DNA of 29,173 nt from a virus. The position numbers and the translations under genes were made by a program. Positions within the stretch are counted from its first letter, which is position 1; the number at the start of each line of letters is the position of its first letter. The stretch lies in IMG/VR virus record IMGVR_UViG_3300047321_000440, positions 1-29,173 of that record; one strand, 5' to 3'. The notes beneath the pieces are model-generated. The model was given only the letters and a program-made list of their open reading frames with translations, was not told where the DNA came from and did not search any database. Below, in pieces: positions 11,085 to 26,846 of the stretch.

Positions 11085-11962
11085 CCAGCACCCCGGCTAC
11101 CCCCTCGGCGAACCACATTGCACGCGTGCTCGCCTGGGCGTGCCAGGCGGCCGTCGCCTCCATGTACCTCGTCGTCATCGGCACCCCGGCCGCGTGGCGT
11201 CCGGTAGTTGCCGCTGACAAGGTCGGCGCCGCCTGCCTGGGGCTGTTCGTGATGTGCATGGCGTTCCTCTGGGGAACCAGCCTTTGGTCCGAGCAGAAGC
11301 ACTTCTACAACCGCAGCAGGCGCGGCATTCACCAGAGCGCCGCCATCGCCGGCCACCTCGGCCTGTTCTTCATCGCGATGGTCGCCGCGACGGAGCAGCC
11401 GAACCCGATCGCCATGTGGGTCATCATGCCGATTTTCTCCGCCCTTGCGATCGTCGTCTGGATCAGCTGGATGCAGAGCCTGGCCCTTCCCCCTGAGGAC
11501 CAGGCCGTCATCGACGCCATTCACGCTCAGCAAGCCCAGGCAGCAGTGGCCCTCTTCGACGCCAGCGAGAAGGAACGCCGCCACGCACGGCTCGGCGCGA
11601 TCGTCGCCAGCCTCGGCTACGAACTGACCGACACGCCTGCTGTCGCCCCGAAGGAGGAGGCACCCCTGCAGACGTGGGTGGTCCCCTCCCGCAAGCACAG
11701 CCCGCTCGTCTACTTCATCCGCAACGGCAACCGACTCAAGATCGGCACGAGCACGGAGCTGAAGCGGAGGGTCCGAACCCTCGCCCTCCGCGCCGAGAAC
11801 GTCGTTCTCCTGGTCAACGGAGGACAGGACATCGAGCGCGCCTTCCACCGCCAGTTCTCCGACCTCCGCATCGGCAACACCGAGTGGTTCGCCTACGAAG
11901 GCGCCCTCGTCGACTACGTCACCACCGAGAACCACCGCATCCGACAGGAGCAGGCCAAGTGA
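11081..11962 (+). CDS. Spd-like membrane protein with C-terminal T5orf172 GIY-YIG domain, 293 aa
   Basis: Four hydrophobic helices lie at about residues 15-34, 47-68, 85-104 and 111-131. A charged helical region follows (140-180). Residues 209-280 form a T5orf172/MUG113-type GIY-YIG domain: LVYFIRNGNRLKIGTSTELKRR, then IERAFHRQF and NTEWFAYEGALVDYV (given in parts). The Tyr, KIG, Arg, Glu252, His256 and EWF positions are present. The membrane part resembles the multi-span Spd proteins that help DNA spread between hyphal compartments. A membrane-tethered nuclease-like domain in such a protein is unusual. The role could be nicking, binding or defence of incoming DNA; this is inference. Confidence 0.75.
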   Translation: MTSTPATPSANHIARVLAWACQAAVASMYLVVIGTPAAWRPVVAADKVGAACLGLFVMCMAFLWGTSLWSEQKHFYNRSRRGIHQSAAIAGHLGLFFIAMVAATEQPNPIAMWVIMPIFSALAIVVWISWMQSLALPPEDQAVIDAIHAQQAQAAVALFDASEKERRHARLGAIVASLGYELTDTPAVAPKEEAPLQTWVVPSRKHSPLVYFIRNGNRLKIGTSTELKRRVRTLALRAENVVLLVNGGQDIERAFHRQFSDLRIGNTEWFAYEGALVDYVTTENHRIRQEQAK

Positions 11963-16753: not shown

Positions 16754-19036
16754 GTGACCACGTCCACGAACGCCACGACCACCCCGGCCGCCACGTCCGC
16801 AGAGCGCGCCGCAGCCATCGCCACGACCGTCGCCCCGCTCGCCGTCGGAATCGTCGCCCCGTTCCTCGACGGCGGCACCGCATTGACCGCAGTCATCGCC
16901 TACGCCGGCGTGGCTTCCGGGACCGCCCTGAACTACTTTGAGCGCCTCCCGCAGGCCCTGACGGACAACCTCCCCGCAGAGGACATCGTCCAGGCCCACA
17001 AGACCCCGCTGTTCATCTCCACCATCACCACCGGAATGTCCCTCGGCATGGGAACCATCATGGGGCCGGACGGCGCCGATGCGTTGATGGCAGGAATGCT
17101 CGACCCGATGTCCATCCCTGGCATCGTCTCCCTCGGCTGGTGGGCTGCCGTCGCCCTCGTCCCGTGGAAGCTGCGCAACGTCCTCGGCCGCAAGCCCAAG
17201 GCGGCCAACCTCGTGCAGGGTGCCCCGGTTGGTGCCCCCGTGCCCGCCCTGCCGCTCACTGGCGCGCAGGCGATCCTCAAGCGGTGGGCCGAGCACGTCT
17301 CCAACCCGCAGAACGGAGCACACCGGGGCCAGGAGCTCACCGTCCGCACCTTCGGGACCACCCGCTGGGTCGGCACCATCACCGCGCCCGTCGGATCATC
17401 CGTCACCGTCACCGCCGACACCGTGTCCTCCGTCTACCAGATCCCCGCCGCATGGATCTCCTTCAAGGCCGGCGCCCACGCAGGGGAGCGCCACATCGCC
17501 GTGAACCTGACCGCCCCCGCCGACCTCGACCCCTCCACCCTGATCGGGGCATGGAAGAAGTGGGTGGCCAAGCCCAACGGCCTCATGGCCGGCACCCACC
17601 TCAAGGACCTTCGCGACGACCCCAACACCGGCGGGCAGGTCGCCCTCGTCGTCGCCGGAGATGACCTCGACCGACTCCGCCACCCCGACCGCATGGACCT
17701 TGCCGGAGCCATGCGCGTCACCAACCCGCTGCTGATCTCCTACGAGCCCCGCCAGAACCCCCGCGAAGCCGTCATCCGCAAGATGGACCGCAACCCCCTC
17801 GAGCAGGGCACCCCGTTCCCCGGCGTGCACGTCCTCAAGGCCAACGCCAACGGCTACATCGAGCTCGGCCGCGGCGTCTCCGGATTCCCCGCCCGTATCC
17901 AGCTCCACGACCCCGCCCTCGGCGCCCAGCACTGCATCGTTGCCGGGGTCACCGGCTCCGGAAAGGGCGGCACCCTCCAGATCATTGCCCTCGCCCACCA
18001 CGTCAACCGGTCCGCGATCATCTACGCCGACCCCAAGGGATCCTCGAACCCGGCGATCGAGAAGATGGCCGCTTACTCCGGTCTCGGCCCGGACGATGCG
18101 ATGGGTGCGCTCCGTATCTGGTACCACGGTCTGATGCACCGAGTCGCCGAGTCCGCGCGCCTCGGAATGAAGAACTTCAAGGCCAGTCCGGGCCGCCCCT
18201 GGGTGCCCCTGATCCTCGATGAGGCCAGCAAGCTCCTTGGCGAGAACGCCGAGCACCGTAAGGAAGCCACGTTCATCATCAACGCCGGTGCGACCCTCGG
18301 CCGCTCTCTCGGTATGCCCGTCGACCTCGCCAACCAGCTCATGCAGCTCGCCCAGCTCGGAGGCGACGCAGCGATCCGCGACAACATCTTCTACGGCGGC
18401 TCTCTCGTCCTCCTTCGCTCCGACTCCCAGCAGAAGCACCTCGTCGACCTCCCCGAGAACTTCGCCGGCTGCAACCCCGCCGACATCCCCCCGGCCTGGT
18501 CCGGAGACCGCGACATGGTCTACGACCCCAGCACGCCCCCGAACGACCCCGAGCGCACCTTCGGTCTCGCGTTCGCCGCCAGCCCCGGCGCCCACGCCGA
18601 GATGATGCGGAACTGGATCCTCGAGGACGCCACCCCGTACATCGACACCGACAACATCGTCATCCCCGAAGACTGGCCGTTCTGGGATCAGCGCCACGAG
18701 CTCGCCACCCAGTCCGTCCTCCCCGACGACCAGGCCGGCGGCGACGATGACGACTTCGCCAGCGGAATGCTGTTCGGCGGAGTCACCGTGGCAAAGAAGG
18801 GCCCCTCCGCCGACGACAAGATTGTCCGGGCGCTCGAGGAGGTCGCCGACCCCCTTGGCTTCGAGGTCATCTACAAGCACAAGAACGACATCGCCAAGCT
18901 CGCGGGCGTGACGGGTTCCACCTTCGACAACGCCCTGTCCCGCCTCGCCGCGGAAGGGAAGATTCACCGGCAGATGAAGGACGGCAAGGAAGTCCGCGGC
19001 CACTACGGCCTCGGCCCGGCCCCCGAAGGCCAGTGA
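16754..19036 (+). CDS. FtsK/SpoIIIE-type DNA translocase, TraB-like transfer protein
   Basis: The GTG at 16754 follows GAAGGAG. Hydrophobic helices lie at about residues 21-38, 42-59, 84-104 and 121-137. A middle domain (about 170-390) leads to Walker A GVTGSGKGG (398-406, Lys404), then YADPKGSSNP, Walker B PLILDEAS (485-492; Asp489, Glu490) and a later SDSQQKHLVDLP segment typical of the FtsK fold. The Walker A Lys is followed by Gly rather than Ser/Thr. The C-terminal ~75 residues form a winged helix (KNDIAKLAGVTGSTFDNALS, RLAAEGKIHRQ) like the domain by which TraB binds clt repeats. TraB hexamers pump double-stranded DNA between mycelia without relaxase. The family call is firm; conjugation by this element is inferred. 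Confidence 0.9.
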   Translation: MTTSTNATTTPAATSAERAAAIATTVAPLAVGIVAPFLDGGTALTAVIAYAGVASGTALNYFERLPQALTDNLPAEDIVQAHKTPLFISTITTGMSLGMGTIMGPDGADALMAGMLDPMSIPGIVSLGWWAAVALVPWKLRNVLGRKPKAANLVQGAPVGAPVPALPLTGAQAILKRWAEHVSNPQNGAHRGQELTVRTFGTTRWVGTITAPVGSSVTVTADTVSSVYQIPAAWISFKAGAHAGERHIAVNLTAPADLDPSTLIGAWKKWVAKPNGLMAGTHLKDLRDDPNTGGQVALVVAGDDLDRLRHPDRMDLAGAMRVTNPLLISYEPRQNPREAVIRKMDRNPLEQGTPFPGVHVLKANANGYIELGRGVSGFPARIQLHDPALGAQHCIVAGVTGSGKGGTLQIIALAHHVNRSAIIYADPKGSSNPAIEKMAAYSGLGPDDAMGALRIWYHGLMHRVAESARLGMKNFKASPGRPWVPLILDEASKLLGENAEHRKEATFIINAGATLGRSLGMPVDLANQLMQLAQLGGDAAIRDNIFYGGSLVLLRSDSQQKHLVDLPENFAGCNPADIPPAWSGDRDMVYDPSTPPNDPERTFGLAFAASPGAHAEMMRNWILEDATPYIDTDNIVIPEDWPFWDQRHELATQSVLPDDQAGGDDDDFASGMLFGGVTVAKKGPSADDKIVRALEEVADPLGFEVIYKHKNDIAKLAGVTGSTFDNALSRLAAEGKIHRQMKDGKEVRGHYGLGPAPEGQ

Positions 19037-19101
19037 CCGGCAGGGGGAACCGGGGGAGGAGCAGCCCGGACAAACCCCCATCCATGCGCCACGATTGAAG
19101 A

Positions 19102-19158
19102 GCACGGCCGGCCAGGGAGCCCCGGTGTCCCCGCGCCCACTCCCCGGCCAGGCCGTGC
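19102..19158 (+). terminator. Hairpin terminator at the end of the transfer operon
   Basis: GCACGGCC (19102-19109) pairs with GGCCGTGC (19151-19158), and an adjacent GGCC pair (19110-19113 with 19145-19148) lengthens the stem. It lies 65 nt after the translocase stop. The region between it and the next hairpin also has four CCCGA(C/G) motifs (near 19170, 19199, 19222 and 19231). Confidence 0.55.
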
Positions 19159-19242
19159 CACACATAACCCCCGACAACCGGGGCACCAGACCGTACGACC
19201 CGAGCTCCAGCAGGTACTTCCCCCGACCTGCCCGAGCCACCC

Positions 19243-19277
19243 GGCCCCCATCAGGCACCCCCCGCCTGGTGGGGGCC
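19243..19277. terminator. 14-bp bidirectional hairpin terminator
   Basis: GGCCCCCATCAGGC (19243-19256) and GCCTGGTGGGGGCC (19264-19277) pair over 14 bp with a single mismatch position (A opposite a G-type wobble) and a 7-nt loop. It lies between the convergent translocase and lipoprotein genes and can serve both. Confidence 0.7.
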
Positions 19278-19291
19278 GCGGCTTGCCCCGG

Positions 19292-19951
19292 CTACTTCAC
19301 CAGCTTCCAGATCCCGCAGCCCCGCGTCGTGAACTGCCCATCCGACGCCCGGATCGTCACCGTGATCTCCTGCGTCGACGTCGCGAAGCTGTTGTCGATG
19401 ATGTCCCCACCCCTGGAAGTCCGCTCCCAGTAGCAGTCCGCCAGATCACCCTTCGCCTGGTACGTGCCCGGCCCGATCGCATCGTCGGCCGTCCCCGGCT
19501 TCGCCTTCACCTTGTACGTGCCATCCGAGTACGACCGGGACGCCTTCCCGTCCAACGCCTTCGTCACCGTCTTCATCAGCTCCGGGCACAGCTTCGGCAC
19601 CCCCATCCGCAGCACCGCAGCCTCGTCCTCGGTCGGCTTCCGCATCATCAGCCACTCAGCCGGATCGTCATCGACCTCCGTGCGCTCCGGCAGCGCTTTG
19701 CAGATGTCCGCCACGTAGGCCGACGCCGACTCGCCAGGCATCCACCCCTTCGCGGTCGCCTCCTGATCGATCTCGTCCTCCCAAGTCGGCGGCTCCTCCA
19801 CCGTCAGAGAAGGTGCTGGCGCGACCTCCGACACCGATGGACTCGAGGCCGCCGGCTTCGCGTCATCACTGCCGCCCCCACCGCACCCCGACACCAGCGC
19901 CACCGCGACAATTCCTGCCGCAACAGCCCCCACGCCCCGCATAAGCCTCAT
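19292..19951 (-). CDS. Lipoprotein with C-terminal GTY/SDG domain, 219 aa
   Basis: The chosen ATG at 19951 gives MRLMRGVGAVAAGIVAVALV followed by SGC, a type II signal peptide with lipobox LVSGC and lipidated Cys23. A Ser/Ala/Pro linker follows, then a helical domain (WEDEIDQEATAKGWMPGES, YVADICKALPE, PKLCPELMKTVTKALDG). The last ~70 residues have AIGPGTYQAKG, DCYWERTS, ITVTIRASDGQFTTRGCGIW, the same pattern as the outer domain of the membrane protein at 3479-4120. It should sit on the outer face of the cell membrane. It is the only leftward gene between two rightward modules, the arrangement of a moron expressed on its own; roles in superinfection immunity or entry exclusion are possible but not shown. 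Confidence 0.8.
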   Translation of the reverse strand: MRLMRGVGAVAAGIVAVALVSGCGGGGSDDAKPAASSPSVSEVAPAPSLTVEEPPTWEDEIDQEATAKGWMPGESASAYVADICKALPERTEVDDDPAEWLMMRKPTEDEAAVLRMGVPKLCPELMKTVTKALDGKASRSYSDGTYKVKAKPGTADDAIGPGTYQAKGDLADCYWERTSRGGDIIDNSFATSTQEITVTIRASDGQFTTRGCGIWKLVK

Positions 19952-20018
19952 GCCGCGCAGGATCCCACCAGGATCGGGCAGGGGGAAGAAAGACCGGCAC
20001 ATCGGGGATCATCGGTTA

Positions 20019-20033
20019 CAGGCGCGGGGCCTG
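20019..20033 (+). promoter_or_regulatory. 13-bp control element, copy 1 (before terS)
   Basis: CAGGCGCGGGGCCTG holds the 13-nt core GGCGCGGGGCCTG shared exactly with 22189-22201 and 24134-24146. It forms a 5-bp stem (CAGGC/GCCTG) with a 5-nt loop and lies 29 nt before the terS ATG. GATC lies upstream of all three copies. Confidence 0.65.
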
Positions 20034-20062
20034 ACGACAACAAAGCGGGAGCCCCGACCGCC

Positions 20063-20587
20063 ATGCCAGCCTCCAGAGCAAAACAAGCCGACACCGCCCA
20101 GCGACGCACCGAGATGCTGCGCATGAAGATCAGCGGCAAGTCGGTCACGCAGATCGCCGAACACTTCGGCATGACGCGCGCCACCGCGTCCAAGGACCTC
20201 AGCCGCATCGTCCGCAAAGCCCGCGAACTCGAGATCCAGGAAGCCGAGCTCTACCGCGAAGTGCAGCGCGGACGCCTCGAAACGCTCCTGCTCGGCGTCT
20301 GGCCCGACGCGGTCACCGGCGAACCGAAGGCATCAGAGACTGCCCGAAAGCTGATCTCCGACCTGTCCGACCTCCTCGGCGTCAAGGTACCCGTCCGCAC
20401 CGAAATCTCCGGCCCCGAAGGCGGCGACATCCCCTTCAGCAGTGGCGACCTGACCGAGCTCCGCACCCTCATCGCCATCTCTGACCAGCCGGGCGCCGAA
20501 GTACCCGACTTCGGTCACGACGACGAAGACGAGGAAGAGGACAGCGAAGGCGACCAGCCAGACGACGATGACGACGACGACCAGTAG
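20063..20587 (+). CDS. terS: Terminase small subunit (HTH DNA-binding), 174 aa
   Basis: The ATG at 20063 follows GGGAG. Residues about 18-55 form a helix-turn-helix (RMKISGKSVTQIAEHFGMTR, ATASKDLSRIV) as in small terminase subunits that recognise the phage packaging site. A helical central part (RKARELEIQEAELYREVQRG, ETARKLISDLSDLLG) would form the oligomer ring. The last ~25 residues are almost all Asp/Glu (DEDEEEDSEGDQPDDDDDDD). It lies directly before the large terminase, overlapping it by 20 nt, which supports the call. A similar HTH regulator is the main alternative. Confidence 0.8.
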   Translation: MPASRAKQADTAQRRTEMLRMKISGKSVTQIAEHFGMTRATASKDLSRIVRKARELEIQEAELYREVQRGRLETLLLGVWPDAVTGEPKASETARKLISDLSDLLGVKVPVRTEISGPEGGDIPFSSGDLTELRTLIAISDQPGAEVPDFGHDDEDEEEDSEGDQPDDDDDDDQ

Positions 20588-22145
20588 GCGGCACCAGGAG
20601 TTCCTCGACGAGTACCGTTCCCTTCCTGCCGAGCAGCGCTACCTCGTTGCCGCCCGCGCCACCCCGGACCAGCGGCGCAAGCTCATGGCGATCGAGCGGA
20701 ACATGGCCATGGACCGGTCCCCCGGAGCCATGGCGTCAGTCCTCACCGAGGGCCGCGAACTTCAAGCACCGCACCTGAATCTGATCGACCAGGCGTTCCA
20801 GCGCATCGCGGCCGGAGAGAAGCTGCAGGTCATGCTGACGATGCCGCCACGCCACGGGAAGTCTCAGAGGGCCTCGCGCTGGGGGCCCCTCTGGTATCTG
20901 CGGCGTCACCCCGAGCACCGCGTCATGATCGCCTCTTACGGTGCCGACCTTGCTGAAGGCCACGGACGGTGGGTGCGAGACCAGCTTCGCGAGTACCCCA
21001 CAGCGCTCGGCATCCGCCTGCACTCCGGATCCCACGCCGCGAACCGGTTCGACCTTGAGCAGCGCCGGGGATCATCCGTCACCGGCGGCATGGTCACCGC
21101 AGGCGTCGGAGGCGGTTTGACCGGAAAAGGCTTCAATTTGGGCATTATCGACGACCCGTTCAAAGGCAACGACGACTCCGGAAGCCCCGCGCAGCGCGAC
21201 CGCGTCTACGACTGGTACCGCTCCGTCTTCTACACCCGGCGTGCCCCCGGCGCCTCAATCCTGCTGATCAATACGCGTTGGCATGAAGACGACCTCTCCG
21301 GCCGGCTCCTCGCCCACGAACCCGAACGATGGATCCAGATCGACCTGCCCGCCATCGCCGACAACGCCAACGACGCCCTCGGACGCACCCTCGGACAGGC
21401 CCTCTGGCCCAGCCAGTACGACGAAACCGACCTCGCCGACACACGCCAGACCCTCGGCGAACGCATCTGGTACGCCATGTACCAGCAAAAGCCCCGCCCC
21501 CTCGAAGGCGGCGTCTGGAAATGGGCATGGATCACCGGGCACCGCGTGGACCCCAAAGCGTGGCCCGGCATCACACCTACCCGTGTCGTCGTCGCCGTCG
21601 ACACCGCCGGTGGCGACACCGTCCGACGCGACTCCGCCGGCAACGACGAAGTCGGGCTCGTCTGCGCCGCCCGCGACGCAGAAGGCCACCTCTACGTCCT
21701 CGACGACCGCTCACGCAACATGGGCGCCGAGACATGGGGCACCGAGGTCTGCCAGCTTGCGATTGACCGGCAGGCTGACGCCATCGTCATCGAGAAGAAC
21801 TTCGGCGGCGACATGGCCGCACAGATCGTCCGCCAGGCCTGGAGCGAACTCGAACGGGACGGCGGCACGAACCGGATGCTGATGCCCGCCATCATCGAAG
21901 TCCACGCCAAGCAGGGGAAGCGCCTGCGCGCCGAACCGATCGCCCAGCTCTACAAGCAGGGCCTCGTCCACCACGTCGGAGAGCACACCGAACTCGAGGG
22001 GCAGCTCGTCACCTGGATCCCCGGTATGGACTCACCGGACCGCATGGACGCTGCCGTGCACGGCCTCACCGAGCTCGCCAACCCGGCTGCCGCATCCGTG
22101 GGCAGCGGTTCGTACAGCGACCACCGCCTGTCCGGGCGTCGTTGA
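20568..22145 (+). CDS. terL: Terminase large subunit, 525 aa
   Basis: This packaging motor couples ATP hydrolysis to DNA entry into the prohead and cuts the concatemer. The ATPase half has Walker A PPRHGKS (93-99, Lys98) and Walker B LGIIDDP (191-197; Asp195 with Asp196 in the usual Glu place). The nuclease half has VAVDTAGG (Asp345), a VIEKNFGG motif and DRMDAAVHGL near the C-terminus, giving the three acidic positions of an RNase H-like nuclease. Length is normal for the family. Translation begins inside terS (20-nt overlap) with no strong ribosome site of its own, so it is probably coupled. It is followed by control element copy 2 and portal. Confidence 0.95.
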   Translation: MTTTTSRRHQEFLDEYRSLPAEQRYLVAARATPDQRRKLMAIERNMAMDRSPGAMASVLTEGRELQAPHLNLIDQAFQRIAAGEKLQVMLTMPPRHGKSQRASRWGPLWYLRRHPEHRVMIASYGADLAEGHGRWVRDQLREYPTALGIRLHSGSHAANRFDLEQRRGSSVTGGMVTAGVGGGLTGKGFNLGIIDDPFKGNDDSGSPAQRDRVYDWYRSVFYTRRAPGASILLINTRWHEDDLSGRLLAHEPERWIQIDLPAIADNANDALGRTLGQALWPSQYDETDLADTRQTLGERIWYAMYQQKPRPLEGGVWKWAWITGHRVDPKAWPGITPTRVVVAVDTAGGDTVRRDSAGNDEVGLVCAARDAEGHLYVLDDRSRNMGAETWGTEVCQLAIDRQADAIVIEKNFGGDMAAQIVRQAWSELERDGGTNRMLMPAIIEVHAKQGKRLRAEPIAQLYKQGLVHHVGEHTELEGQLVTWIPGMDSPDRMDAAVHGLTELANPAAASVGSGSYSDHRLSGRR

Positions 22146-22158
22146 CCGGGGGCAGCGC

Positions 22159-22202
22159 CCAGGCCCTGCGCCCGTACGCTGATCACATGGCGCGGGGCCT
22201 GG
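22159..22202 (+). promoter_or_regulatory. 13-bp control element, copy 2, in a 14-bp stem (before portal)
   Basis: GGCGCGGGGCCTGG (22189-22202) holds the shared 13-nt core. Here it pairs with CCAGGCCCTGCGCC (22159-22172) over 14 bp with one G-T, loop 16 nt containing TGATCAC. It ends 16 nt before the portal start, just ahead of AGAGGAG. TTGACC lies upstream at 22142, but no matching -10 box is evident. Confidence 0.65.
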
Positions 22203-22217
22203 TACAGAGGAGTTCTG

Positions 22218-24107
22218 GTGGGTCTCAGGCAGATCGCCATCCACGCATGGAGCTGGCTGAACTACAAGCCGGTCTACTCCGACTCGATGGGCATGCCCAA
22301 CCGTCGTGCGTTCCCCGAAGCGCAAGCGATGTGGGTACCGGCCGAGGACGAACGGCGCCTCGCCGCGTACAAGCTGCTGTCCGCCTACGACCACAACCAG
22401 GCAGCGGAGATCGCCGAGGTCGTCGACGGCCCGAACGCCCGCGACCGGCGCGAGTTCGGCGACCCGTCGATGTTCATCGACACCCTCGTATCGAACGTGC
22501 TGGGGCGCGAACAGAAGATCGTGGTCCCCGGTGCGGAGCAGACCGGCACGGTCCAGAACGGGGCTGTGTCAGCCGCGGCTGCGGAACGCGTCCAGGAACT
22601 CCTGCGCGACTGGGCCAAGGCCGAACTGCTGCCGATGCGCTTGCAGCAGTGCGAGCGGAAGACCGTCGCGCTCGGAGACGGCGTGTACCGGATGGCGTGG
22701 GACCCGGCGAAGCGTCGCCCGACCCTGCGCGTCACCGACCCCGGGTTCTACTTCCCCGTCATCGGGGAGGACGACGACGGTGGGGAGTACCCGCGCCGTG
22801 TTCACTTCGCCTGGGAACTTCCCGCGGATCCGAAGCGGGACCTCAAGGCCCGGCTGCGGCGGATCACGTACGAGCTGGACTGGATTCGGCCGCTGACCGT
22901 GACCGGGGTCGACGAGACCGGCTCCCGTGCGGTCCGCGCCTTTCCCCCCGCCCCTGTGGTGGAGGGCGAAGACGGTACGGAGCCCGCCGTGCCCGTGCTG
23001 ACAGCTGGCGACACCATCGAGCCCGTCACCGGGGCCATCGCCCGCCAGTACGCGTGGAACGACGAACCCTCCTACTTCACCTGTTACCTCACCGACGCCA
23101 CCTGGGTCATCGGCGACATCAAGGGACCCGTCGACGTCGACTCGCTGCCTCTCGCCAGTGCCACCTACGCCACCCGGTCGGACGGTGAAGTCCTCGACCA
23201 CCTCGACCTCCTCATCGACTTCATCCCGGTCATCCACGTCCCGAACACGGTGCCGCCGGCCGAAGAGCACTGGGGGCAGTCGTCGCTGGCGAAGGCCCTG
23301 CAGGTCTTCGACGAGCTCGCCGGATCGGACACCGACTCCGCCCGCGCTTCCGCAACCACCGGGCTGCCCATGCTCGCCGTGTCCGGTGTCACCGACTCCC
23401 GGCAGGAACTGGCCGCCGGCCCGGGCATGGTCTTCAAGCTCGGGGAGAACGGTCGCCTGACCGCCGTCGACACCTCCACCGCCCTGGCAGAGCTCCGCAA
23501 TCACGTGGCGGACCTGAAGGACCGGGCCTCCAACATCGTGCGGCTGCCCGCCGTATCCCTCGGCACCCTCAGCCCGTCCGAAGTGCCGTCCGGGTTCGCC
23601 ATGCAGGTCTCCCTGGGCCCCCTGGACTCCCTCATCGGCAGCATGCGCCTGGCCCGCGAACACAAGGAACGGCTCCTCCTGAAGTTCGTCCAGCGCCTCT
23701 ACCTGGCAGGCCAGCACCCCGACTGGGCCGGGATCACCCCGCAGGACGCCGAACTCGTCCGCGGCCCCTACACACCCACCGACAAGGCGGCGGTTCTCGA
23801 ACAGGTCGCCAACGGTGTCCCCAAGGGCGTCATCTCCCTCGAGACCGGGGTGCGGATGCTCGCCGACGCCGGGTTCCCCATCGACGACATCGAGAAGGAG
23901 ATCGAGCTCATTCAGTCCCGGGCGTTCGAGCAGGCCCGGTTCCTTGCCGACGCCCTCGGCAACCCCGACGAAGTCGCCTCCTTCCTCGGCCGCCAAGCCC
24001 CGGAAAACCCGGAGCCTCCCGTGCCGAACCTGCCGCCTGCTGCGGCCGACGACACTGTTCAGAACCTCCTGGAACAGGGGCAGCAGGGGAGCAGGGGGAA
24101 CGAATGA
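22218..24107 (+). CDS. Phage portal protein, 629 aa
   Basis: The GTG at 22218 follows AGAGGAG. The dodecameric portal forms the DNA entry channel of the head. The 629-aa protein starts MGLRQIAIHAWSWLNYKPVY and has typical portal features: an N-terminal clip/wing part (VDTLVSNVLGREQKIVVPG-like FIDTLVSNVLGREQ), a GVYRMAWDP motif, a central IDFIPVIHVPNTVPP strand, EHWGQSSLAKALQVFDELAG and a long stem/crown helix (NHVADLKDRASNIVRLPAVS). The C-terminus is helical and then Pro/Gln-rich. Position between terminase and scaffold is diagnostic. It belongs to the actinophage Gp6-like portal group as far as I can judge. Confidence 0.9.
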   Translation: MGLRQIAIHAWSWLNYKPVYSDSMGMPNRRAFPEAQAMWVPAEDERRLAAYKLLSAYDHNQAAEIAEVVDGPNARDRREFGDPSMFIDTLVSNVLGREQKIVVPGAEQTGTVQNGAVSAAAAERVQELLRDWAKAELLPMRLQQCERKTVALGDGVYRMAWDPAKRRPTLRVTDPGFYFPVIGEDDDGGEYPRRVHFAWELPADPKRDLKARLRRITYELDWIRPLTVTGVDETGSRAVRAFPPAPVVEGEDGTEPAVPVLTAGDTIEPVTGAIARQYAWNDEPSYFTCYLTDATWVIGDIKGPVDVDSLPLASATYATRSDGEVLDHLDLLIDFIPVIHVPNTVPPAEEHWGQSSLAKALQVFDELAGSDTDSARASATTGLPMLAVSGVTDSRQELAAGPGMVFKLGENGRLTAVDTSTALAELRNHVADLKDRASNIVRLPAVSLGTLSPSEVPSGFAMQVSLGPLDSLIGSMRLAREHKERLLLKFVQRLYLAGQHPDWAGITPQDAELVRGPYTPTDKAAVLEQVANGVPKGVISLETGVRMLADAGFPIDDIEKEIELIQSRAFEQARFLADALGNPDEVASFLGRQAPENPEPPVPNLPPAAADDTVQNLLEQGQQGSRGNE

Positions 24108-24131
24108 CCCGAGCCGTGCTTTCCTTGATCT

Positions 24132-24146
24132 CAGGCGCGGGGCCTG
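24132..24146 (+). promoter_or_regulatory. 13-bp control element, copy 3 (before scaffold)
   Basis: CAGGCGCGGGGCCTG is identical over 15 nt with copy 1, and TGATC precedes it as in copy 2. It lies 26 nt before the ATG at 24173 and downstream of the portal stop. Its presence argues that 24108-24172 is leader and not coding. Confidence 0.65.
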
Positions 24147-24172: not shown

Positions 24173-24916
24173 ATGCGTCGCCCCACGCAGCACCACAACA
24201 TCCCCGCCATCCACTCGGCGTGGGCGCACCCGTACACCGGCGTGACCGGTCTCGGCGTGTTCTACAACGACGGCGGCGACCCGCCCGCCGGTGGTGCGCC
24301 GAACCCCCAGGACCCCCCGAAGCCCGGGCCGCCCACCACCCAGCGGACCTTCACCCAGGACGAACTCACCGCCCTGGCCGCGAAGGAGAAGGCTCAGGGA
24401 GAACGTGCCGGCGCGAGGGCCGCTCTAGAGAAGGTCGCCGCCGACCTCGGCTTCACGAACCTCGACGACGCCAAGGCGTTCATCGAGGAAGGCCGCAAGG
24501 CCAAGGAAGCCCAGCTGAGCGAGCACGAGAAGAAGGAACGCGAACTCGCAGACCGTGAGGCCAAGGCCGAAGCCCGTGAGAAGGCTGCAGCAGAGCGTGA
24601 GCGGATCGCGAACCGTCGGGCCATCCTGGTTGGGCTCGGAGCGACCGGAGTAGACCTCGAGGACGCTGTGGCCCTCCTGCGCGTCCCGGACGACGCTGAC
24701 GACGCCACGATCACCGAGGCTGCTGAGGCGCTCAAGGGGCGCCGCGGTGAACTCTTCGGTGTCGCCCGGCAGGACGACCCGGCCGTCACGCAGCTCCCCC
24801 CGGCACCGGGCGGTGCACCCGCAGGCGGCCCCCCGGCACGACAGGCACCCACCGGCAAGCCCGGCGACCGAGGCCGCGAAATGGCCCGCCTCCGCGGCCA
24901 CAAGCCCGCCGCATAA
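24173..24916 (+). CDS. Capsid scaffolding protein, 247 aa
   Basis: Scaffold proteins form a temporary core for prohead assembly. The 247-aa product starts MRRPTQHHNIPAIHSAWAHP, then a Pro/Gly-rich stretch (DPPAGGAPNPQDPPKPGPP), a long charged coiled coil (about 85-160; EKAQGERAGARAALEKVAAD, KEAQLSEHEKKERELADREA) and a helical domain (ATGVDLEDAVALLRVPDDAD), ending in a basic tail typical of capsid-binding ends (PGDRGREMARLRGHKPAA). I chose the ATG at 24173 with GGGAGG about 10 nt upstream; an ATG at 24104 overlaps the portal stop (ATGA) but its first residues would be coded by the repeated control element. The gene lies before decoration and capsid genes. Confidence 0.8.
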   Translation: MRRPTQHHNIPAIHSAWAHPYTGVTGLGVFYNDGGDPPAGGAPNPQDPPKPGPPTTQRTFTQDELTALAAKEKAQGERAGARAALEKVAADLGFTNLDDAKAFIEEGRKAKEAQLSEHEKKERELADREAKAEAREKAAAERERIANRRAILVGLGATGVDLEDAVALLRVPDDADDATITEAAEALKGRRGELFGVARQDDPAVTQLPPAPGGAPAGGPPARQAPTGKPGDRGREMARLRGHKPAA

Positions 24917-25793: not shown

Positions 25794-26846
25794 ATGGAGG
25801 CTCTTGAGCTCCTCCTGCGGGACACCAACGACACCGATCTCACGGTGTTTGCCCGCCAGATGGACACCCCGGCGAACTACCGGCTCACCCGGGAGATCCT
25901 TCCCGAGACCACGGTCCCGGGGGTTAAGTTCCGCACCACGTCCGCGAAGCGACGCGTCAACGCCGCGAAGTTCCGCGCCTACGACGCCCCCACGACCATG
26001 GCGAAGCGCCAGGCCGAGCAGGTCGTCAACGAGGGCATGCTCCCCGCCCTGGGCCAGACCCTCGCCGTGTCCGAGATGGACCAGATCCTTCTCGACGTCG
26101 GCCATGGCTCGGACACCCAGCGCTACATCGACCTCCTGTACTCGGACGTCGAGCGGCACGTCGAGTCCATCCGCACCACGCAGGAACTCGCCGCCGGCCA
26201 GCTACTCGCCAACGGCACCGTCAACCTGCCCGGCCTCGGCCTGGACGTGAACTGGAACGTCCCCAGCGCGAACATGCCGACGGCTGGCACCCTGTGGGAC
26301 GACCCGACCGCCACCCCGCTCACTGACGAGCGAGCCTGGATCGATCACCTGCTCGACTCCGGTGCTCCCGCCCCGCGCCAGGTGCTCACTTCCCGCCGGG
26401 CCCGTGCCCTGCTGGCGGCAAACGTGGAGTACCGTGCCGCGTTCTACGGCTCCTCAAGCACGGGCACCACGCCGACGGCGACTCTCGCGCCCAACGAAGT
26501 CGATGCGGTCCGCGCCCGCTACGACCTGCCGCCGATCGTCACCTACGACGTCCAGGTCTGGGACGACGACGTATACAAGCGCGTCCTCCCCGACAACAAG
26601 TGGATCCTGATCCCGGACGTTCCGGCGGCGGAGTGGGCGCAGACCCAGTACGGCCGCACCCGTGAGGCGGCCAAGTTCACTTCCGGAACCAACCCGGCAC
26701 TCACCCGCGAAGAGGCCCCCGGCATCGTCGTCGTCTCGCACGTCGACGACAACCCGGTCCAGATCTACACCCGCGGCGCAGCAATCGGCATGCCCGTCCT
26801 GTACGTCCCGGACATCCACATCTCTGCGACCGTCCTCGGGGCGTGA
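25794..26846 (+). CDS. Major capsid protein, lambda gpE-like, 350 aa
   Basis: The ATG at 25794 follows AGGAGGAG, the strongest ribosome site in the window, fitting high expression. The 350-aa product has features of the capsid E (lambda gpE, HK97 fold) family: DTNDTDLTVFARQMDTPANY, LTREILPETTVPGVKFRTTS, REYDAPTTMAKRQ-like RAYDAPTTMAKRQAEQ, a long helix DTQRYIDLLYSDVERHVESI, a DPTATPLTDERAWIDHLLDS segment, and near the end VYKRVLPDNKWILIPDV and a GIVVVSHVDDNPVQIYTRGA stretch. Length is normal. It lies after scaffold and decoration genes. Confidence 0.9.
   Translation: MEALELLLRDTNDTDLTVFARQMDTPANYRLTREILPETTVPGVKFRTTSAKRRVNAAKFRAYDAPTTMAKRQAEQVVNEGMLPALGQTLAVSEMDQILLDVGHGSDTQRYIDLLYSDVERHVESIRTTQELAAGQLLANGTVNLPGLGLDVNWNVPSANMPTAGTLWDDPTATPLTDERAWIDHLLDSGAPAPRQVLTSRRARALLAANVEYRAAFYGSSSTGTTPTATLAPNEVDAVRARYDLPPIVTYDVQVWDDDVYKRVLPDNKWILIPDVPAAEWAQTQYGRTREAAKFTSGTNPALTREEAPGIVVVSHVDDNPVQIYTRGAAIGMPVLYVPDIHISATVLGA

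Follow-up and report, generated by a model that had tools for sequence, protein, structure and literature searches.

The 9-nt word GGCGCGGGG, which opens a 13-mer repeated ahead of the terS, portal and scaffold genes, is best explained as the target of a phage small RNA (sRNA), placed at the predicted start of three late mRNAs; from the comparative evidence set out below, we give this reading a probability of about 0.7. The element was analyzed in a 29-kb virus record, taken at its full length and referred to here as the window. The window's terminase shares 67% identity with its counterpart in the Streptomyces phage-plasmid ZL12, and identity reaches 87% with the terminases of circular ~90-kb Streptomyces plasmids. 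The initial annotation had proposed that packaging and head genes share a regulatory site, a proposal that the relatives support well: the element is a real, strongly conserved control element. That annotation had also listed an RNA-level regulator among its candidates, and this direction proved right, while an sRNA target at the 5′ end of the mRNA was not one of the options it named.

A conserved nine-nucleotide core in three predicted late promoters

The 13-mer GGCGCGGGGCCTG occurs at 20021-20033, 22189-22201 and 24134-24146, always on the plus strand, and is followed after 29, 16 and 26 nt by the start codons of terS (ATG 20063), portal (GTG 22218) and scaffold (ATG 24173), respectively. 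Rescanning confirmed these positions, the common orientation and the start gaps of 16-29 nt as first annotated, together with a GATC upstream of each copy (10, 4 and 3 nt upstream of copies 1, 2 and 3). No fourth exact copy is present anywhere in the window, so that the earlier claim of no other full copy holds for the 13-mer; its first 9 nt, however, recur on the minus strand at 19137-19129, which is the loop of an sRNA-like hairpin read from the other strand, and at 26379, where promoter context is absent and the match looks like chance. Judged from the window alone, the significance of the repeat is modest, and 4 of 100 dinucleotide shuffles of the window hold some 13-mer in at least three copies on one strand. 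The 13-mer is taken as real because dozens of relatives have exact copies ahead of the corresponding genes and because its core is found in 126 of 126 portal-anchored loci.

The scan of relatives that had been suggested as a check recovered exact or altered copies at the same genes. With few exceptions, exact copies lie on the late-gene strand, and nearly all of them stand at terS, portal or scaffold; each complete ~90-kb relative has 0-3 of them. Relatives that lack an exact copy carry an altered version in its place, differing for the most part in the final two letters, which vary freely. This comparison reduces the functional unit to the 13-mer's first 9 nt, the core GGCGCGGGG. The relatives gathered comprise 80 viral loci and 79 genome loci, some of them distant. 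Upstream sequence was present for 126 homologous portal loci. When these were searched within 110 nt upstream of the portal start, independently of the motif, every locus was found to contain the core (119 exact, 7 as GGCGTGGGG), across portal identities of 49-100%. Anchoring on terS gave an exact core in 103 of 123 loci and one mismatch in 12, and a narrow anchor on scaffold gave an exact core in 53 of 85. The shortfall at scaffold lies in lineages in which this gene lies further from portal, and many of those sites were located by another search. A reversed control word produced 0-1 matches per class in the anchored tests.

Beyond this family, the element is absent from the Streptomyces phages phiC31, VWB and mu1/6, and a scan of INPHARED returned ZL12 as the only convincing match. 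In 150 Streptomyces genomes, the pattern of hexamer plus core is not enriched and is less common than its reversed control; its clear matches are prophage genes, and the idea of a host regulon was rejected. Two further observations concern the neighborhood of the terminase genes. A fourth late-promoter copy, located upstream of terS, precedes a gene for a ParB-like nuclease-domain protein at L072:5761, L097:6132, L099:6124, L107:5606 and L110:3621. Moreover, the terL matches in several plasmids (among H48, H55, H63, H66, H69 and H70) fall into two pieces, some with HNH or LAGLIDADG endonuclease annotations beneath them, and introns or inteins in the terminase gene are the likely cause.

In the window, each core lies 8 nt downstream of a -10-like hexamer and is accompanied by a box, boxA, at the -35 position, all on the plus strand. 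At terS, the core occupies 20021-20029, the hexamer GATCAT 20007-20012 and boxA GGGGGAAG 19981-19988; at portal, the corresponding positions are 22189-22197, 22175-22180 (TACGCT) and 22148-22155 (GGGGGCAG); and at scaffold, 24134-24142, 24120-24125 (TTTCCT) and 24094-24101 (GGGGGAAC). Downstream lie terS (20063-20584), a small terminase gene whose product has an N-terminal helix-turn-helix (HTH), terL (20568-22145), the large terminase gene, probably co-transcribed with terS, portal (22218-24107) and scaffold (24173-24916). The scaffold promoter sits inside a longer open reading frame that begins with ATG at 24104, and the scaffold start at 24173, as originally assigned, is therefore well supported.

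Among the relatives, the hexamer takes the forms TACnCT at portal, TnnnCT at scaffold and GATCAT at terS, with TAnnCT as the general form. The core follows it after 6-9 nt (mean 7.6-7.8 nt, sd 0.4-0.8 nt), and its distance to the start codon has an sd of 3-8 nt and a range of 11-45 nt. In the phage-plasmid lineage, the spacer between boxA GGGGGAAC and the core measures 31-33 bp in the 145 sites with a recognised boxA, while the other lineages keep the hexamer and the core with nothing conserved at -35. The late promoters resemble actinobacterial sigma70 (HrdB-type) promoters in the TAnnCT hexamer and the start region: a -10-like hexamer accompanies the core at 123 of the 126 portal sites, in the place of a sigma70-type -10 (TAnnnT 6-9 nt before the start), and the GATCAT of terS is a poor -10. 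They differ from HrdB-type promoters in their -35 region, which lacks TTGACA 16-18 bp upstream and has boxA in the phage-plasmids only; a scan gave no promoter-like match. In the shortest leaders, little beyond a Shine-Dalgarno sequence fits between the core and the start codon; transcription therefore probably begins at or before the core, which should form the 5′ end of the three late mRNAs.

A predicted small-RNA gene carrying the antisense of the core

When the opposite strand was searched, an additional core came to light upstream of terS, in the window as in its relatives, embedded in a long inverted repeat. The repeat belongs to an unannotated, predicted sRNA gene on the plus strand, about 0.9 kb upstream of terS (19067-19158). 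Its putative promoter consists of a -35 element, CGGACA (19067-19072), and a -10 element, CACGAT (19090-19095), with a transcription start expected at 19100-19102; exactly 17 bp separate GACA from CAnnnT in 61 of 63 relatives, and this arrangement is a second point of likeness to HrdB-type promoters. The predicted hairpin spans 19102-19158 (-41.3 kcal/mol for 19095-19172, z -5.5). Its seed CCCCGCGCC, at 19129-19137, is the exact antisense of the core and occupies the CCCC apical loop plus the 3′ side of the apical stem.

The association between hairpin and seed does not depend on having looked for the seed. With the sRNA promoter plus hairpin as the only criteria, 68 elements were recovered, of which 65 hold the exact antisense 9-mer in the loop; likewise, in 65 of the 68, the CCCC loop provides a C-rich unpaired region complementary to the G's of the target, as in RNAs of the RoxS/FasX type. 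The stem covaries: across 48 distinct sequences, 31 cells are changed on both sides, compared with 6.5 in shuffles (0 of 500 shuffles reached this value), and sliding the hairpin partner lowers pairing from 89.9% to 45% or less. The apical stem has the form RYGU-CCCC-GCGCC, in which the 5′ stem partner of the seed varies only as pairing permits (UG in 36 and CG in 12 of the 48 sequences). A related bias is seen on the side of the target, where 13 of the 20 promoter cores with one mismatch carry C5T or C3T, the only core substitutions that keep pairing with the sRNA, via G-U. This excess has a P of about 5e-5 even if all changes are transitions, a value that is only indicative because related loci are not independent.

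Among the 62 loci of the phage-plasmid type, at least 61 have the sRNA gene, and in 56 it lies at most 1.3 kb upstream of terS. It is further off in L010/L085 and L037/L088, each pair being the same record seen twice, so that the 62 loci are not all independent; a variant occurs in L011, and the gene was not found in L086. A search of Rfam returned no family near threshold or at the gathering score. A covariance model built on the sRNA of this group (clade 1) matches the window, L165 and L011, and gives no convincing match in lineages 2 or 3, the hairpins of clade 3 included. Two features of the surrounding sequence are also recorded. In most phage-plasmids, a GGGGGA(A/G)-like box precedes the sRNA -35 (about 19047-19053 in the window); it resembles the boxA of the late promoters and may point to shared activation. 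Between the sRNA and terS lies a gene with a lipoprotein-like start (19292-20002, minus strand), divergent from terS; some relatives lack this gene and have only 130-190 nt between their sRNA and the terS core.

An antisense loop is also present in a second prophage lineage (most of L118-L132, and L109, L112 and L405), where a differently built hairpin, 4-6 kb upstream of terL and with compensated stem changes, holds CCCCGCGCC in its loop. The clade-1 covariance model misses these clade-3 hairpins, so that a common origin with those of clade 1 is no more than a possibility. At L120:5335-5475 and in its relatives, stems flank the clade-3 hairpin on both sides, making it one segment of a larger structured RNA. 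In a third lineage (L097-L107, L113, L138 and others), the core is retained at the same genes, and several searches there found no hairpin with an antisense loop. In L113, a repeat resembling a CRISPR-like array (AGGGACCATCC units) was observed near 18974-19462, beside the prophage. Separately, Gordonia phage Jambalaya (L501) carries GCTGGCCGAGGGCCGGGC three times, at 11580, 14883 and 19131, upstream of its major capsid, major tail and tape measure genes, and Zitch (L502) carries GGCTAGGGGCCGG twice, upstream of 14769 and 18227. These repeats can form short hairpins and lie downstream of TAnnnT-like hexamers; they are possibly a parallel system.

Other explanations for the core

The core could instead be a DNA site, an operator or activator site at the start of transcription bound by a phage or host protein, with the inverted copy upstream of terS as another site, for instance in a pac/cos region. 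We regard this as unlikely, albeit the strongest of the alternatives. The fixed spacing of the core to the -10 hexamer and boxA, and the restriction of the sites to the starts of late transcription units, would suit a bound protein, and a protein reading either orientation would account for the inverted core. However, no regulatory gene is common to all core-bearing lineages, which share the virion module only; a comparison of gene content between the phage-plasmids and the core-bearing chromosomal prophages found no repressor, sigma factor or replication gene common to all. Among the shared proteins, an HTH is seen in TerS only, through weak matches below the Pfam cut-offs, yet TerS is 25-38% identical between lineages, and the HTH regions differ visibly. 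That region is thus not strikingly conserved, and TerS is a possible reader of the core. A protein site does not predict a promoter with 17-bp spacing before a hairpin, covariation in the stem, or an excess of C-to-T changes that keep G-U pairing.

Among known DNA sites, the closest comparison is with the stoperators of cluster A mycobacteriophages (L5, TipsytheTRex), asymmetric 13-mers bound by the immunity repressor at more than 20 sites per genome (PMC9283540). Like them, the element is an asymmetric 13-mer that lies in short intergenic gaps and follows the direction of transcription; unlike them, it has three sites and no repressor gene shared among core-bearing lineages. The counts of exact 13-mers in complete ~90-kb relatives place it outside that class.

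A second, still less probable possibility is that the core acts without any partner in trans, as an intrinsic promoter or leader element in which GGCGCGGGG, as the first stretch transcribed, determines by itself initiation, pausing or mRNA stability, the antisense loop being unrelated. The third lineage, around L097-L113, fits this view in keeping the core with no antisense RNA detected, as does a core made of G/C only at the 5′ end. Left unexplained are the exact conservation of nine letters and the fact that two distinct structured elements in these phages hold the antisense 9-mer in their loops.

A translational role is very improbable, whether as a start-associated sequence (SAS) or as a local mRNA hairpin regulating ribosome binding. 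The sites do precede start codons, and copies 1 and 3 can form CAGGC-GCGGG-GCCTG, as first annotated; in relatives, however, the hairpin arms are not maintained, the 3′ half of the 13-mer varying without compensation, and folding of two of the three leaders is no better than in shuffles (z -0.49, -0.58 and -1.91). The upstream arm of the 14-bp stem described for copy 2 lies before the predicted transcription start, which would restrict that stem to read-through transcripts. Base pairing between the core and the region of the start codon ranked 6, 14 and 6 of 120 permutations in three classes, which is suggestive, but 47 and 40 of 120 in others; as no general pairing was found, the idea was dropped. 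The SAS of cluster K mycobacteriophages, GGGATAGGAGCCC, which had inspired the initial comparison, contains a Shine-Dalgarno sequence (AGGAG) and lies 3-7 nt before the starts of non-structural genes, in 11-19 copies (PMC3203893). The two elements share an asymmetric 13-bp word, in one orientation, upstream of a subset of phage genes. The element described here differs in sequence from the SAS, is tethered to promoters rather than to start codons, holds a constant distance to the -10 hexamer while its distance to the start varies, and is present in three copies at packaging and head genes; its distances to the start codon, 29, 16 and 26 nt within the window and 11-45 nt across the relatives, place it outside the SAS class. 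Finally, a chance repeat of a GC-rich word, as some shuffled windows contain, has a negligible probability given conservation at homologous positions in more than 100 relatives, against 0-1 control matches.

Proposed control of packaging and head genes by one small RNA

Under the sRNA-target reading, three separate late promoters would drive terS-terL, portal, and scaffold onward, with the element as their 5′-terminal part. RNA polymerase would read the -10-like hexamer, plus the GGGGGAAC box at -35 in the phage-plasmid lineage, and would start at the core or one or two nt before it, so that each mRNA would begin with (N)GGCGCGGGG. From the sigma70-like promoter upstream of terS, the same phage would make the sRNA, a GC-rich hairpin whose CCCC apical loop would open to present CCCCGCGCC, and this one sRNA would pair in trans with all three mRNAs (terS, portal and scaffold) at their extreme 5′ ends. 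Predicted duplexes with all three leaders reach -28 to -30 kcal/mol. Five of the nine seed bases lie in the apical stem of the folded sRNA, and pairing therefore needs the stem to open. While promoter geometry, the antisense match and stem covariation can be read directly from the aligned sequences, we infer expression of the sRNA, its pairing in cells and the sign of its effect. A role as pairing site for the sRNA is the probable reason for the invariance of the core.

A precedent for this geometry is provided by RoxS acting on yflS in Bacillus subtilis and FasX acting on ska in Streptococcus, in which a C-rich region of the sRNA pairs with G's at the extreme 5′ end of the mRNA, four C's on four G's that lie 5-6 nt downstream of the -10; RNase J1 is thereby blocked and expression rises (PMC5419742; Durand et al. 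2017). The likeness is one of geometry, with pairing well upstream of the start codon, and implies no sequence relation to the phage sRNA. Unlike RoxS and FasX, the predicted RNA is phage-encoded, within the phage late region, and would meet three morphogenesis mRNAs via one identical 9-nt word, through its apical CCCC loop. Streptomyces has RNase J. Because the geometry is alike, protection of the 5′ ends, which would raise the late mRNAs together, is put slightly ahead of the opposite sign: protection has about an even chance of being correct, and a substantial but lesser possibility is that, in the plasmid prophage, the sRNA silences late mRNAs made by leaky transcription. It is reasonably likely, if less so than the identity of the core as an sRNA target, that the sRNA coordinates packaging and head genes via one 9-nt word at their 5′ ends, as an RNase J clamp or as a silencer, and that the same seed recurs on another hairpin scaffold in the second prophage lineage.

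In the literature searched, we found no description of late-gene control in the ~90-kb phage-plasmids of Streptomyces. The combination of core and hexamer would offer a simple means of recognising late promoters in this phage family. If the proposed mechanism is correct, one unannotated RNA of ~60-80 nt would control terS, portal and scaffold together, its target word being joined to the promoter and thereby placed at the head of each mRNA. An actinobacterium would then provide a case of phage morphogenesis genes controlled in trans by an sRNA.
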